DNA of 64,000 nt, from NCBI RefSeq assembly GCF_001428305.1, contig NZ_LMRZ01000005.1:438403-502402 (forward strand). The letters run 5' to 3'. Positions 14,137 through 26,680 of the stretch are shown here, in pieces. Each line of letters opens with the position of its first letter. Position 1 is the stretch's first letter. The translations under genes and the position numbers were made by a program. The notes under the pieces were generated by a model that saw only the letters and a list, made by a program, of their open reading frames with translations, was not told where the DNA came from and searched no databases. This DNA comes from Janibacter sp. Soil728. Lineage in GTDB: Bacteria; Actinomycetota; Actinomycetes; Actinomycetales; Dermatophilaceae.

Positions 14137-15425
14137 GCCTGGCCGTCCTTGTCGACGAGGCCGAACCACTCGGCCGCGGTGTGCATGTCCTTGTCACCGC
14201 GCCCCGAGAGGTTGACCAGGAGCAGAGCGTCCGGGCCGAGCTCCTTGCCCACGTCGAGCGTCGCAGCGAGTGCGTGTGCGGACTCGAGCGCCGGGATGAT
14301 GCCCTCGGTGCGGCACAGCAGCTGGAAGGCGTGCATCACCTGATCGTCTGTCGCATAGCGGTACTCGGCTCTCCCGCTGTCGCGCAGGAACGAGTGCTCG
14401 GGCCCGACGCTGGGGTAGTCCAGCCCCGCCGAGATGGAGTGCGTCTCCAGCGTCTGCCCCTGGTCGTCCTGCATGAGATAGCTCATCGCCCCGTGCAGCA
14501 CCCCGGGCTCCGCGGTCGCGAAGCGAGCCGCGTGCCGGCCGGTGTCGATGCCGTCGCCGCCGGCCTCGACACCGATCAGGCGCACACCTTGATCAGTGAC
14601 GAAGCGGTGGAAGATCCCCATGGCGTTGGAACCGCCACCGACACAGGCGATCACCGCGTCGGGCAGGCGGCCGGTCAGCTCGAGGACCTGACCACGAGCC
14701 TCCTCGCCGATGATCTTGTGGAAGTCGCGGACCATCTCTGGGAAGGGGTGGGGCCCGGTGACCGTACCGAGGACGTAGTGCGTGTGGTCGACATTGGTCA
14801 CCCAGTCGCGCATGGCCTCGTTGATGGCGTCCTTGAGCGTCGCGCTGCCGTGCTCGACGGCGACGACGGTGGCGCCGAGGATCTTCATCCTCGCGACATT
14901 GAGGGCCTGCCGCTCGGTGTCGACCTTGCCCATGTAGATCGTGCACTCCAGCCCCATCAGGGCGGCTGCCGTGGCGGTGGCCACGCCGTGCTGACCGGCC
15001 CCGGTCTCGGCGATGACTCGCCGCTTGCCCATGCGCTTGGTGAGCAGCGTCTGGGCGAGGACGTTGTTGATCTTGTGGCTGCCCGTGTGGTTGAGGTCCT
15101 CACGCTTGAGGATGATCCGGGCGCCCCCGGCGTGCTCGGCGAACCGCGGGACCTCGGTGATGATGCTCGGGCGGCCGGTGTAGGTGCGGTGGAGGGTGGC
15201 CAGCTCGTCGATGAACTCGGGGTCGACCAGCGCCTTCTGCCGCGCCTCGTCGAGCTCCTCGAGCGCCGGGATGAGGGCCTCGGGGACGTACCGTCCGCCG
15301 AAGGCGCCGAAGCGTCCCGGCACGTGGACCTGTGCCGGGACGGACTCTGCCTGCTCGGTCCCTGCCTGCTCGGTCCCTGCCTGCTCGGTCCCTGGCTGCT
15401 CGGTGGTCATCTCGTCCTCACTCAT
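14133..15425 (-). CDS. trpB: Tryptophan synthase beta subunit
   Basis: A 430-residue PLP enzyme that condenses indole with serine to give tryptophan. The PLP lysine is K118 in [15 protein letters not shown]; the glycine-rich phosphate loop [10 protein letters not shown] and the C-terminal SGRGDKD are present. The catalytic core begins at [15 protein letters not shown] (about residue 37). The first 30 residues are an unusual GTEQA pentapeptide repeat encoded by a 15-bp tandem repeat. I use ATG 15425 because it overlaps the trpC stop (ATGA); an internal ATG at 15410 is possible and would shorten the tail by five residues. Confidence 0.96.
15351..15401 (-). repeat. 15-bp tandem repeat in the trpB 5' end
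   Basis: Three and a partial fourth copy of the 15-bp unit CTGCTCGGTCCCTGC (plus-strand reading) lie at 15351-15365, 15366-15380, 15381-15395 and 15396-15401. The third differs at its last base. On the coding strand they give repeated Gly-Thr-Glu-Gln-Ala in the N-terminal tail of TrpB. Because 15 is a multiple of three, copy-number change would keep the frame. Confidence 0.9.
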
Positions 15426-22582: not shown

Positions 22583-23296
22583 CTAGTTTGCCGGGGCCGG
22601 TGCGCTGTCCACGGGTTCACGGTCCGGACTCTCGGTGCGCGAGGCGCGCAGCCAGACGAAGAAGCCGTAGAGGACGAAGCCGGCATAGACGGCGTACAGG
22701 ACCGCGGTCGGCAGGTAGTCGCTGTGCCACAGCAGGGGCACGCCGACGAGGTCGACCCCGATCCAGATGAGCCAGAACTCGTTCCACCCCCGGGCCATGG
22801 CGTAGGTCGCGAGCAGCGATCCCATGAAGATCCAGGCGTCAGCGACGTGGTACCACCTCGGGGCCGGCCAGCCAGCGCCCAGCATCGAGAAGACCTGCTG
22901 CACGACCACGACCCCGATGACCATCGTCACCGCAAGGCCGACGCGCTCGGCCACGGTCGCCCAGCGAGGGGTGATCGCGTGCGCCTGACCCGAGTGGTTG
23001 GCCTGCTTGACCTGCCGCCAACGCCACCAGCCGTAGAGCGAGGTGATGATGAAGAAGATCTGCCGGGCGGACTGCCCGAAGAGGGGCGCCTTGTCATCGA
23101 CGCCCATCGTCACTCCGATGTAGACGAAGAAGAGGATCGCGTTGCCCACGATCCCGATGGGCCAGGCCCACACCTTGCGCAGCATCCCGCCGACGGCCGA
23201 GGCGAGACCGAAGGAGATCCCGATGACCTCCATGAGCGAGAGGCGGTAGCCAGCGATGTCGACGCCGGCCGAGTAGATCCATTCGATGATGGACAT
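22583..23296 (-). CDS. pnuX: PnuC-family riboflavin transporter (PnuX/RibM)
   Basis: A 237-residue membrane protein with about seven helices and the PnuC-family WAWPIGIVGNAILFFVYI and LYGWWRWRQ motifs. Plain homology would suggest nicotinamide riboside uptake. However, an FMN riboswitch lies 26 bp upstream on the same strand, and in actinobacteria the riboswitch-controlled members (PnuX, RibM) import riboflavin. I therefore assign flavin uptake, which is inferred from context. AGGA eight bases before the ATG lies next to a segment that can pair with the riboswitch 3' end, suggesting control of translation. hisE follows after 11 bp. Confidence 0.88.
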   Translation of the reverse strand: MSIIEWIYSAGVDIAGYRLSLMEVIGISFGLASAVGGMLRKVWAWPIGIVGNAILFFVYIGVTMGVDDKAPLFGQSARQIFFIITSLYGWWRWRQVKQANHSGQAHAITPRWATVAERVGLAVTMVIGVVVVQQVFSMLGAGWPAPRWYHVADAWIFMGSLLATYAMARGWNEFWLIWIGVDLVGVPLLWHSDYLPTAVLYAVYAGFVLYGFFVWLRASRTESPDREPVDSAPAPAN

Positions 23297-23321
23297 GCGT
23301 CGTCCTAGTCCGCGCGCGCCG

Positions 23322-23430
23322 CTCTCATCCGGACTTTGACCGTCGGCCCCGGAGTTCTGGACCGGAGTTCACCGTCTGCCGAGGCAGCCGGGTCGCGGGC
23401 TCTCACCGCCGGTGCGGAATCTCACCGCGT
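23322..23430 (-). promoter_or_regulatory. FMN riboswitch (RFN element)
   Basis: On the minus strand the conserved blocks appear in order: GGTGAGATTCC, ACCGGCGGTGAGAGCCCGCG, a variable stem (CTGCCTCGGCAG), ACTCCGGGGCCGACGG and TCAAAGTCCGGATGAGAG. These match the RFN aptamer that binds flavin mononucleotide and turns expression off. Downstream, CGGAC just before the AGGA ribosome binding site can pair with GTCCG of the aptamer's 3' end, so a translational switch is likely; no U-tract terminator is seen before the ATG. Confidence 0.9.
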
Positions 23431-23529
23431 CACGTGGCACGTGCAGGGACATTGTGCGCGAAGGGAGAGCCCGCTCGGCCATTGGGTTGGCTCCGTGAGA
23501 TGCAAGACCCGGGACCTGATCCGAGAGGG

Positions 23530-24238
23530 TTCGCCCCCTCTGAAGGGGGTAAGACGGTTCGTCCCCACCCACGGGACCAAGACGAGTTCGCCCCCTGTGA
23601 AGGGGGCAAGACGGTTCGTCCCCACCCACGGGGACCAAGGCAAGTTCGCCCCCTGTGAAGGGGGCAAGACGGTTCGTCCCCACCCACGGGGACCAAGACA
23701 AGTTCGCCCCCTCCACGGGGGGCAAGACCGTTCGCCCCCTCTGAAGGGGGCAAGACCATTCGTCCCCACCCACGGGGACCAAGACGAGTTCGCCCCCTCC
23801 ACGGGGGGCAAGACCGTTTGCCCCCTCTGAAGGGGGCAAGACCGTTCAGGCAAGACAGTTCGTCCCCACCCACGGGGACCAAGACGAGTTCGCCCCCTCA
23901 CGGGGGGCAAGACCGTTCGCCCCCTCTGAAGGGGGCAAGACCGTTCAGGCAAGACAGTTCGTCCCCACCCACGGGGACCAAGACGAGTTCGCCCCCTCCA
24001 CGGGGGGCAAGACCGTTCGCCCCCTCTGAAGGGGGCAAGACCGTTCAGGCCAAACAGTTCGTCCCCACCCACGGGGACCAAGACGAGTTCGCCCCCTCCA
24101 CGGGGGGCAAGACCGTTCGCCCCCTCCACGGGGGGCAAGACCGTTCGCCCCCTCTGAAGGGGGCAAGACCGTTCAGGCAAGACAGTTCGTCCCCGCCCAC
24201 GGGGACCAAGACCGTTCGCCCCCTGTGAAGGGGGCAAC
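23530..24238. repeat. Tandem hairpin-repeat array, 23 units
   Basis: Twenty-three units of 27-30 bp, each starting TTCG (one TTTG) and ending in AAGAC plus a few bases, lie almost end to end with no unique spacers. Three classes occur. Class A has stem GTCCCC/GGGGAC with loop ACCCAC (8 units, first at 23558). Class B has GCCCCC/GGGGGC with loop TCCACG (6, first at 23703). Class C has GCCCCCT/AGGGGGC with loop CTGA or GTGA-like (9, first at 23530). Four 14-bp linkers starting TTCAGG lie at 23845, 23944, 24044 and 24172. From 23859 the order A-B-C-linker repeats with about a 100-bp period. It is stop-poor in several frames but I see no coding evidence. Confidence 0.9.
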
Positions 24239-24252
24239 GCACGAACCCTTCG

Positions 24253-24412
24253 AGACGGCGCTGGCGCGCCTCCTCAGGGAACGGTGAGCAGACGGCGCTG
24301 GCGCGCCTCCTCAGGGAACGGTGAGCAGACGGCGCTGGCGCGCCTCCTCAGGGAACGGGTAAGAAGACGGCGCTGGCGCGCCTCCTCAGGGAACGGTGAC
24401 CAGACGGCGCTG
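24253..24412. repeat. 37-bp direct tandem repeats
   Basis: Five starts of AGACGGCGCTGG occur at 24253, 24290, 24327, 24365 and 24402, giving periods of 37, 37, 38 and 37. The first four units share GCGCGCCTCCTCAGGGAACG; the fifth decays after about ten bases. A weaker CGCCTCCTCAGG relic lies near 24460. This fills the gap between the hairpin array and the end of rpe. No gene is evident from 23431 to 24488. Confidence 0.85.
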
Positions 24413-24488
24413 GGCGCACATCCCAGGGGCGGTGGTGCGACGGGCTGGCCACGCCTCCTCAGGAGACGAGATGTCGGTCGTGGCTCGT

Positions 24489-25145
24489 TCAGTGGCCGTG
24501 GCCCTGCGCCAGCTCCCGCAGCTCGTCGATCGCCCCAGCAGCCGACTCGGCTCCGTAGACGGCCGACCCGGCGACGAAGACATCGGCGCCCGCCTCGGCG
24601 CACTGCTCGATGGTCTTCGCGGAGACACCGCCGTCGACCTGGATCCAGATCTCGCCGCCGTGCTTCTTCACGGCCTCGCGCACCTGCGCGACCTTGGGCA
24701 TCTGGTCGGCCATGAAGGACTGCCCACCGAATCCGGGCTCGACCGTCATGACGAGGACCATGTCGAGCTCGGGCAGCAGCTCCTCGTAGGGGGCGAAGGG
24801 AGTTCCCGGCTTGAGGGCCATCGACGCTCGCGCGCCCTGGGCCCGGATGTCCCGGGCCAGGGTGACGGGGTTCTTCGCGGCCTCGATGTGGAAGGTGACC
24901 GACTTCGCCCCGGCCTCGGCGTAGGGCGGTGCCCAGCGGTCGGGGTCCTCGATCATCAGGTGGCAGTCGATCGGGATCGGGCTGACCCGCAGCAGCGACT
25001 CGACGATGGGCAGGCCGAGGGTGAGGTTGGGCACGAAGTGCGCGTCCATGACGTCGACGTGCGCCCAGTCGGCGTTGCTGATCGCGTCCAGCTCGGACTG
25101 CAGGTTGGCGAAGTCGGCGGAGAGGATGCTCGGGGAGATCTGCAC
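24489..25145 (-). CDS. rpe: Ribulose-phosphate 3-epimerase
   Basis: A 218-residue TIM-barrel enzyme interconverting ribulose 5-phosphate and xylulose 5-phosphate in the pentose phosphate pathway. [13 protein letters not shown], the metal/catalytic [36 protein letters not shown] and the second catalytic Asp in IQVDGGVS are intact. The GTG start at 25145 follows AAGGAAA. It lies 50 bp after rsmB and is the last gene before the repeat region. Confidence 0.97.
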
Positions 25146-25195
25146 GGGTTTCCTTGCTGGAGAGACGGGTTCAGACAGCGGACATGGAGTTGGTG

Positions 25196-26680
25196 TCAGG
25201 ACGTCTTGCGCAGCAGCGCGAGGAACATCCCGTCGGTGCCGTGCAGGTGCGGCCACAGCTGGGCGTGCGGTCCGTCACCGAGACCGGTGAGCGTGGCCAC
25301 CGCTGCGGCAGACAGGTGCTCGCGGGCGTCGAGCACCTCGACGTCGTCACGCTTCTTGAGCACGTCACGCACGACGAAGGTCGTCTCCGACAGGTGCGGG
25401 CTGCACGTCGCGTAGGCGATGACGCCGCCGGGACGCGTGGCATCGATACCGGCCGCGAGCAGCTCGCGCTGCAGGGGGCCGAGACCGACGAGGTCGCTCG
25501 GCTGCCGGCGCCAGCGCGCCTCGGGGCGGCGGCGCAGCGCGCCGAGCCCGGTGCAGGGCGCGTCGACGAGCACGCGGTCGTAGGTCTGCGGTTCGTCCCG
25601 GCCCACCTCACGGCCGTCCCCCGTGCGGACGACGAGCTCGCGACCGTGGTCCTTGGCCTTGGCCATCGCGGGACGCAGGCTCTGCCGGACCAGCTCGGTG
25701 CGGTGCTCGCTCAGCTCGTTGGCGACGAGGTCGGCGCGCTGACGCAGGGCGAGGGCGGCGAGCAGGCCCGCCTTCCCCCCGGGCCCAGCACACAGGTCCA
25801 ACCAGCGCTCGGGTGCACCGTCGGCGCGCTCGTGCACCGGCACGCCCGCCAGCGCGAGAGCCAGCAGCTGGCTCCCTTCGTCCTGGACGGCGGCGCGGCC
25901 CTCGCGGATCGCGTCGATGCTGCCCGGGTCACCGCTGTCGAGCTCTGCGGCGAAGGGGGACCACCGCCCGGGCTGCGCACCGGCAGCGAGCAGCTCGTCG
26001 ACCTCGCACAGGCCGGGACGAGCGATGAGCGAGACCTCGGCAGGGATGTTGTGCGCCTCGAGCAGCTGCTCGAGGACGTCGTCCGCGTCGTCCGTGGTCG
26101 CGACGCCGTGACCGATCAGGGCCTGACGCAGCGCCTTGACGATCCACACGGGGTGCGAGAGCGAGACGGACAGTCGCTCGGTCACCGGCTCGGTCGGAGT
26201 GACCAGCTCGAGCCACTCCTCGCGGCTGCGCTCACCGACGCGCCGCATGACGGCGTTGACCAGGCCAGCGGCTCCCTGTCCGGCTGCGGAGCGGGCGAGG
26301 GCGACGGACTGGTCGGCGGCCGCGTGCACGGGGACGCGCATGCCCAGGACCTGGTGGGCACCCATGCGCAGGACGTCGAGCACTCCCCCGTCCAGCTTCG
26401 CGACGGGTCGTTGTGAGGCGTGGGTGATGACGGCGTCGTAGAGCCCCTGCATGCGCAGGGTGCCGTAGGTCAGCTCGGTGGCGAAGGCGGCGTCCCGCCC
26501 GCTCAGATGGGCCCGGCGCAGCGCCTTGGGCAGCTCGAGGTTGGCATAGGCGCCGTCCTCGGAGACGGCGCGCAGGACCTGCTGAGCGGTCGCGCGGGGC
26601 ACGTCTGCCCGGCGTGCTCGCGCCGAAGGTGCAGTCCGCGACTTCTGGCGCGGTCCCTTGTGGTGGTTCTCTGACGTCAT
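25196..26680 (-). CDS. rsmB: 16S rRNA m5C967 methyltransferase
   Basis: A 494-residue protein. Residues about 25-155 are a NusB-like RNA-binding domain. The C-terminal two-thirds is the SAM-dependent RNA m5C methyltransferase, with [17 protein letters not shown] (residues 295-311) binding SAM and the two cysteines C376 (VDAPCTGLG) and C426 (YATCSPH) for catalysis and release. It methylates C967 of 16S rRNA. The basic, Ser/Arg-rich first 25 residues are usual in actinobacteria. The ATG overlaps the fmt stop by four bases. Confidence 0.94.

Follow-up and report, generated by a model that had tools for sequence, protein, structure and literature searches.

What is the run of 23 palindromes between rpe and a pnuX-like gene in this Janibacter genome, and how did it arise? 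We examined it within a 64-kb stretch of DNA, referred to here as the window. The array separates rpe from the FMN riboswitch of the pnuX-like gene; both genes and the riboswitch are on the minus strand. In our judgement there is an even chance that the array arose by tandem amplification of palindromes from two REP-like families, which occur in Janibacter and near kin and are linked to a nuclease. The relevant features of the window are as follows.

22583-23296, minus strand: pnuX-like transporter gene (NMN_transporter family)
23313-23443, minus strand: FMN riboswitch in the pnuX leader (RF00050, 74.9 bits), downstream of the array on this strand
23529-24237, no strand assigned: palindromic-unit array, 23 units (8 A, 6 B, 9 C) and four 14-bp linkers
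23529-23757, no strand assigned: first part of the array, C-A-C-A-C-A-B-C, mainly 58-bp C-A dimers, with the same layout in relative G010
23758-24184, no strand assigned: higher-order part of the array, four A-B-C-linker blocks of about 100 bp each, the fourth with two B units
24185-24237, no strand assigned: end of the array, terminal A and C units
24253-24463, no strand assigned: second tandem array, adjoining the first and built of 37-bp units (AGACGGCGCTGGCGCGCCTCCTCAGGGA...) from another family that has dispersed copies in the genome (Tandem Repeats Finder)
24489-25256, minus strand: rpe, ribulose-phosphate 3-epimerase; the array is 3' of this gene

Positions 23529 to 24237 divide into 23 units, each of about 27-30 bp. 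These form 23 consecutive hairpins, from 23534 to 24235, with stems of 5-9 bp and loops of 4-7. An earlier note on this DNA had described 23 contiguous hairpin units of 27-30 bp and, in the second half, A-B-C-linker blocks of about 100 bp. Both descriptions hold, with small corrections at the opening and closing motifs. Briefly, one unit opens with ATTCG and another with GTTTG; one closes with AAGGC and the last with CAACG. From 23758 the order is A-B-C-link three times, then A-B-B-C-link, then A-C. The four 14-bp GTTCAGG linkers resemble units from which the hairpin has been deleted. A-unit stems read GTCCCC/GGGGAC and those of B and C units GCCCCC/GGGGGC. At the second stem pair, all 8 A units have T-A and all 15 B and C units have C-G. 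Stem damage is confined to the first two units, at the array edge. The first ends with GGGGGT and the second, short of one G, has a 5-bp stem. Exchange would keep inner units alike and leave edge units damaged. The array scored up to 726 in Tandem Repeats Finder, and GYCCCC-N6-GGGGRC matched 20 times within it and 0 times in the rest of the window.

The second tandem array belongs to a repeat family (CCCTTCGAGACGG...CCTCCTCAGGGA) with 19 places in the same genome, 24253-24463 included. Small tandem arrays of this family were present in several of seven places examined. The window also holds a short array of a 15-bp repeat at 15347-15404 (3.9 copies, 97% matches). The FMN riboswitch and one tRNA were the only Rfam matches in the window at gathering score. 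Assignment of the palindromic array to a known RNA family was rejected, since it had no such match.

Is the array a fixed part of the locus? We surveyed the rpe-pnuX spacer in 16 genomes, with pnuX outside view in G001, G002, G006, G013 and G014; units are known in the spacer of 5 of the 16. G010 carries alternating C and A units, including one mixed unit with a broken pair 2. An IS110-type transposase gene splits a unit of the G010 array (L091 2857-4062, minus strand). We infer that this gene is a later passenger and not the source of the array. Perfect units occupy the same spacer in G009 (three in tandem), G003 and G011 (one each). No units were found in G004, G005, G007, G008 and G015, where the spacer is in view, and the G012 spacer has three unpaired, chance-like matches that do not take the array form. 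The genomes thus carry anything from 23 units down to none in this spacer. The array therefore expands and contracts, and it does not belong permanently to the locus. The suggestion of whole-unit conversion in the earlier note is supported to this extent: both the layout and the varying size in relatives favour array growth unit by unit. The same note had worried that the array might exist only in this assembly. It does not, and the G010 array at the same place makes an assembly artefact unlikely.

In both families the repeat is at its simplest a dyad, TTCGYCCCC-N6-GGGGRC, in which arms of 6-9 bp flank a 6-base centre; its full form is TTCGCCCCC-N6-GGGGGCGAA. In the array's own genome, TTCGYCCCC-N3..9-GGGGRC matched 31 times forward and 12 times in reverse; a reversed control pattern matched 0 and 1 times. 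All 16 Janibacter genomes had matches. Counting the array, and full palindromes once per strand, the totals came to 118 forward and 116 reverse matches; the reversed control gave 0 and 3. Strand matches per genome ranged from 4 to 43, array included, for a pattern that misses copies without TTCG. The poorest genome, G002, has four matches, one with a paired stem and a 6-base centre. Dyads are frequent in most of the 16 Janibacter genomes and rare across our sample of the order. There, the full dyad with CGAA occurred in 3 of 149 genomes, with eight sites in the array's own genome and one each in two others of the same family.

Dispersed dyads occur in a recB-like linker, in the spacer after a dnaE2-like gene and in a gene beside folP. 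The folP-neighbour gene has a dyad in 8 genomes and the recB-like gene in 5; these 8 and 5 orthologues are weak evidence because they were found via the pattern itself, which forces most of the stem identity. In the members of both groups that were read, the dyad encodes FAPxxGGE. The number of dyads varies in the spacer after the dnaE2-like polymerase gene (L046 1480-1660, L092, L129, L113), and this spacer has both dyad classes, those with C-G and those with T-A at pair 2, in G010 and G009. Four T-class-like hairpins, two with T-G at pair 2, lie in a 558-aa reading frame of G010 (L090 2061-2309). Long perfect arms, of 19 and 16 bp, were noted at L112 (about 2012-2029) and L132 (about 1558-1575) in G004 and G009. 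Some dispersed copies decay. Alignment of two places gave no clean empty site for the dyads, of the kind that a transposon-derived MITE, with its target site duplication, would be expected to show. In a viral collection, four stretches had the dyad pattern, and the one examined in part was an isolated copy in AT-rich DNA.

The difference between A and B/C stems had been read in the earlier note as a compensatory change, C to T with G to A, that keeps the pairing. The dispersed copies bear this out. Of the 92 copies with a 6-base centre among all listed places of G001-G011, 84 had pair 2 paired (Fisher p ~1e-15). As a control, copies with other centre lengths had pair 2 paired in 6 of 27. Random non-pairing stem variants, which according to the note would count against its reading, were not the rule in these relatives. 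With copies of the array's own genome outside the array added, pair 7 was paired in 66 of 106; 2000 shuffles gave a mean of 40.4 and a maximum of 59. A second set of 114 distinct copies was partly chosen for paired matches, and the G001-G011 counts are the fairer test. In this set pair 2 was paired in 107 copies (shuffle mean 60.6, maximum 77) and pair 7 in 73 (shuffle mean 43.0, maximum 58). We made no use of its G-T and A-C counts, which say nothing about strand. Outer pairs were without covariation in the 114-copy set (70 for the stem-adjacent pair versus 67.9 in shuffles), and pairs forced by the search pattern are uninformative. Pairing is kept by linked changes, well above chance, across the genus.

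A DUF222/HNH-type group of genes harbours many of the dyads, in the middle of the gene and near the stop codon. In the array's own genome, 7 of 14 dispersed places (array left out) fall inside three such genes or no more than 34 bp away; together the three genes account for about 0.17% of the sequence. The equivalent figures were 7 of 16 in G010, 2 of 6 in G001, 2 of 4 in G005 and 2 of 7 in G006. The five-genome total is 20 of 47, from place lists entered by hand and with copies inherited by duplicates that are not independent. The other DUF222 genes of the array's own genome (L022-L024, L026-L030) have no such dyad.

The class of dyad follows the type of gene. A protein search of the 16 genomes identified 18 genes of the C type, spread over 15 genomes, and 11 of the T type, one per genome in 11 genomes. 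Counted inside the reading frame or up to 60 bp beyond its end, the 18 C-type genes all carry C-G dyads (36 C-G, 0 T-A). By the same measure, the 11 T-type genes all carry T-A dyads (26 T-A, one C-A, 0 C-G). The pattern used for these counts detects only these dyad classes. In a phylogenetic tree, C and T types fall on opposite sides of one fully supported branch, with a T clade of 10 of the 11 rows; the eleventh gene, from G007, is read in two frames and was left out. This gene (L239) may be broken or mis-sequenced. Since the clades split at one branch, the class match represents few independent events. It was established on one or a few occasions and inherited from then on. Both classes exist across the genus, each tied to its own gene clade. 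A and B/C units are two older, separate palindrome families and not variants that arose within the array. G001, G005 and G006, where no T-type gene was found, each list one T-A dyad with a 6-base centre.

DUF222 (PF02720) was matched by 9 of 20 group members at E up to 1 (best 2.4e-12), and HNH (PF01844) weakly by 8 of 20 (best 0.00097). The C-type member L086 had no Pfam match, and L086 and L088 had no NCBIfam match. Residues of a D-H...N...H-H motif are at least 90% conserved in the 20 members. The product is probably a nuclease that acts as a dimer. The structure model of L086 was poor (mean pLDDT 55), with the HNH part unresolved, and a search for relatives of solved structure gave nothing useful (best E 0.25). 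A part in anti-phage defence was considered and rejected, three of these proteins being without a PADLOC match. An SOS-box-like sequence covers the start codon in 14 of 23 genes at up to 2 mismatches and in 9 at up to 1; the search required ATG-TT[CT]GA, most of the right half, such that only the left half is independent. L169, L170, L172, L193 and L223 are examples, and the sequence resembles the mycobacterial SOS box, TCGAAC-N4-GTTCGA. No T-type gene had such a start, among the 6 of 11 in which the start was found.

Is the dyad within the gene maintained as protein or as DNA? In most genes, the mid-gene dyad encodes the peptide FAPxxGGE. The codons are GCC in 17, CCC in 17, GGG in 16 and GGC in 17 of the 18 C-type genes, all picked by protein search. 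For conserved Ala, Pro and Gly codons elsewhere, the mean majority shares were 0.60, 0.69 and 0.58, from 16 of the 18 genes. The dyad is intact in 16 of 18. It was lost in G009 through one codon; in G012 the codons and the peptide have both changed. The near-frozen synonymous codons point to a constraint on the DNA at this site. Very short conversion tracts could mimic such selection; varying loops and flanks that are not shared oppose this. The earlier note had offered selection on a folded form, RNA or cruciform, as one explanation. The part of this that is borne out is that pairing is kept and that, at one site, the stem persists at synonymous positions. The outer pairs do not covary, and our data do not separate a folded RNA or cruciform from a two-fold symmetric site in duplex DNA.

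More distant relatives set limits on the association. The only homologue found in G002 (38% identical) has two dyads inside the gene and three at its 5' side, 43 bp apart; two of these three have T-G at pair 2. In G081 (probably J. melonis), a 40% identical homologue has GCCCCC-N6-GGGGGC at the homologous spot. Two T-class dyads (L170, 2486-2503 and 2565-2582) lie about 420-520 bp before the start of a nuclease-gene homologue from J. melonis. A further paired change, GTTCCC-N6-GGGAAC, precedes the start codon by 46 bp in J. massiliensis and 62 bp in Marihabitans. GYCCCC-N6-GGGGRC was absent from 28 related-gene loci (98 kb) of nine other genomes of the order, G081 left out, and the nearest thing in those loci was one 7-bp TTCG/CGAA dyad. 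A rule for all DUF222/HNH genes was rejected, given the absence of dyads from these 28 loci of other genera and from the other DUF222 genes of the array's own genome. The association of dyad and gene is old in the Janibacter lineage and not general.

Four features point towards recognition of the dyad by a dimeric protein: a centre fixed at 6 bases, symmetry of the arms, fidelity of class, and position at the gene. For such a protein, the product of the DUF222/HNH-type gene would be the best candidate. These features suggest, and do not prove, a partnership between dyad and nuclease. The encoded protein, as a candidate dimeric nuclease, would bind its own dyad and cut or nick there. Repair of the break would copy dyads to new places, and repeated exchange would build tandem arrays, for which the rpe-pnuX spacer would be a tolerant place. 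Dyads inside the genes may serve gene control or mark their own locus. Our fullest account is a self-contained system of palindrome and nuclease, unrelated to RAYT. Two DUF222/HNH-type nucleases, some with an SOS-box-like start, would each recognise, spread and amplify their own intragenic dyad, which would be under constraint as DNA. Dyad and enzyme specificity would have changed together through paired stem changes. We propose this tentatively, as a possibility and not a probability.

A somewhat more doubtful explanation is that the dyads are ordinary REP-like repeats, with an unknown route of spread and no functional link to a gene. Linkers and tails of dispensable genes, those of DUF222/HNH type among them, would simply tolerate such repeats. 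The class match would then derive from a founding copy in each clade. The single split of the gene clades is in keeping with this, as is an array that varies from 23 units to none at one spacer. So too are copies in other genes and spacers (recB-like, after dnaE2-like, beside folP); known REPs fall in recB and dnaE2 as well, according to passages of PMC3733652. What this explanation does not predict is the near-frozen synonymous codons of the mid-gene dyad, though short conversion could mimic these. It also sits poorly with G002, which lists one paired copy with a 6-base centre yet has five dyads at its gene.

Dyads could instead be operators or anchoring sites of another DNA-binding protein, a regulator or chromosome organiser, some of them at repair-related genes, with the array as a decoy or anchor cluster. 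A fixed centre between symmetric arms would suit any dimer, dyads lie 5' of the gene in distant relatives, and among the neighbours are a recB-like gene and one resembling an error-prone polymerase. Nevertheless, we think this unlikely. The sites at C-type and T-type genes of Janibacter are mid-gene and near or just after the stop codon, not at the start. Moreover, the class split tracks the nuclease-gene clade, and no separate regulator was found.

Unlikelier still is an RNA-level element in the rpe transcript, acting as a stabiliser, processing site or weak terminator upstream of the FMN riboswitch and pnuX. The arrangement of rpe, array and riboswitch-pnuX on one strand would allow it, and the minus strand of the array folds as RNA far more stably than shuffled sequence (z = -10.2, 20 shuffles). 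Yet one weak terminator-like site was found in the array where shuffles give 1.0 over the region, and units are known from the spacer in 5 of 16 genomes, with none in five others where it is in view. An array of intrinsic terminators was rejected on the same count of one weak site against that background. Chance or an assembly artefact is barely credible: the genome is GC-rich and tandem repeats may be mis-assembled, but G010 has an array at the same locus, the reversed control is nearly absent and the window has no other match.

How does the proposed pairing of dyad and nuclease compare with known systems? No report of the dyad repeat was found in the open-licence literature, among the matches listed. 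The remark in the earlier note that it knew of no described element with this layout needs qualifying in that the units resemble REP elements in kind.

In REP13E12, the repeated unit is the gene itself. Going by the account in parts of PMC10589994, REP13E12 and the 13E12 family of Mycobacterium tuberculosis, whose genes combine DUF222 and HNH, probably share a broad protein family with the Janibacter DUF222/HNH-type genes. Unlike our observations in Janibacter, the passages on 13E12 in PMC10589994 and PMC4181829 report no small dyads. A section of PMC4181829 proposes a link between 13E12 HNH genes, DnaE2 and LexA in M. tuberculosis. The SOS side may be shared, in that several Janibacter genes have an SOS-box-like start.

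REP and BIME elements of the GTAG superfamily are dispersed palindromes of 20-40 bp, matched to an associated endonuclease gene, RAYT or TnpAREP (passages of PMC3733652 and PMC8266576), with which the REPs co-evolved (a passage of PMC8266576). Like REP and BIME elements as described in part of PMC3733652, the Janibacter dyads are short, dispersed and clustered in spacers, some in recB-like or dnaE2-neighbouring sequence. An IS110-type gene inside a unit of the G010 array recalls the IS110-family insertion in REPs exemplified by ISPpu9 in a passage of PMC8450116. Unlike RAYT-linked GTAG REPs, the units have no unpaired GTAG tag; their flanks are GTTCG and AAGAC, CGAA or CCAA. The Y1/RAYT transposase (PF01797) was found in 0 of 16 genomes, and in 5 of 14 control genomes. 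Also unlike REP/RAYT, the dyads lie inside the candidate partner gene and have far fewer copies. REPs usually exceed 100 copies per genome, as stated in a passage of PMC2817692. Hence, in the broad sense the Janibacter dyads are REPs as dispersed short palindromes and fall short in number.

Some REP palindromes have neither RAYT nor a known partner enzyme, according to passages of PMC3733652. Those with a CGTC tag, mainly from alphaproteobacteria, have stems of 8-9 bp and no RAYT or known transposase; the passages on them define an unpaired CGTC tag, a stem that begins with A-T pairs, and a CCA tail (PMC3733652). The Janibacter palindromes are of similar size to those described there and likewise lack RAYT. 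They differ in that CGTC lies within the arm of A units, not unpaired, and is absent from B and C units, and in their 6-base centre. The Janibacter dyads are REP-like in distribution and are set apart by the missing tags and RAYT, the lower copy number and their place in a candidate partner gene. A dyad class that tracks the clade of its DUF222/HNH-type gene provides a defined 24-bp candidate substrate, with matched and mismatched forms as a built-in control. If true, the partnership would add an independent second type of pairing between enzyme and palindrome.
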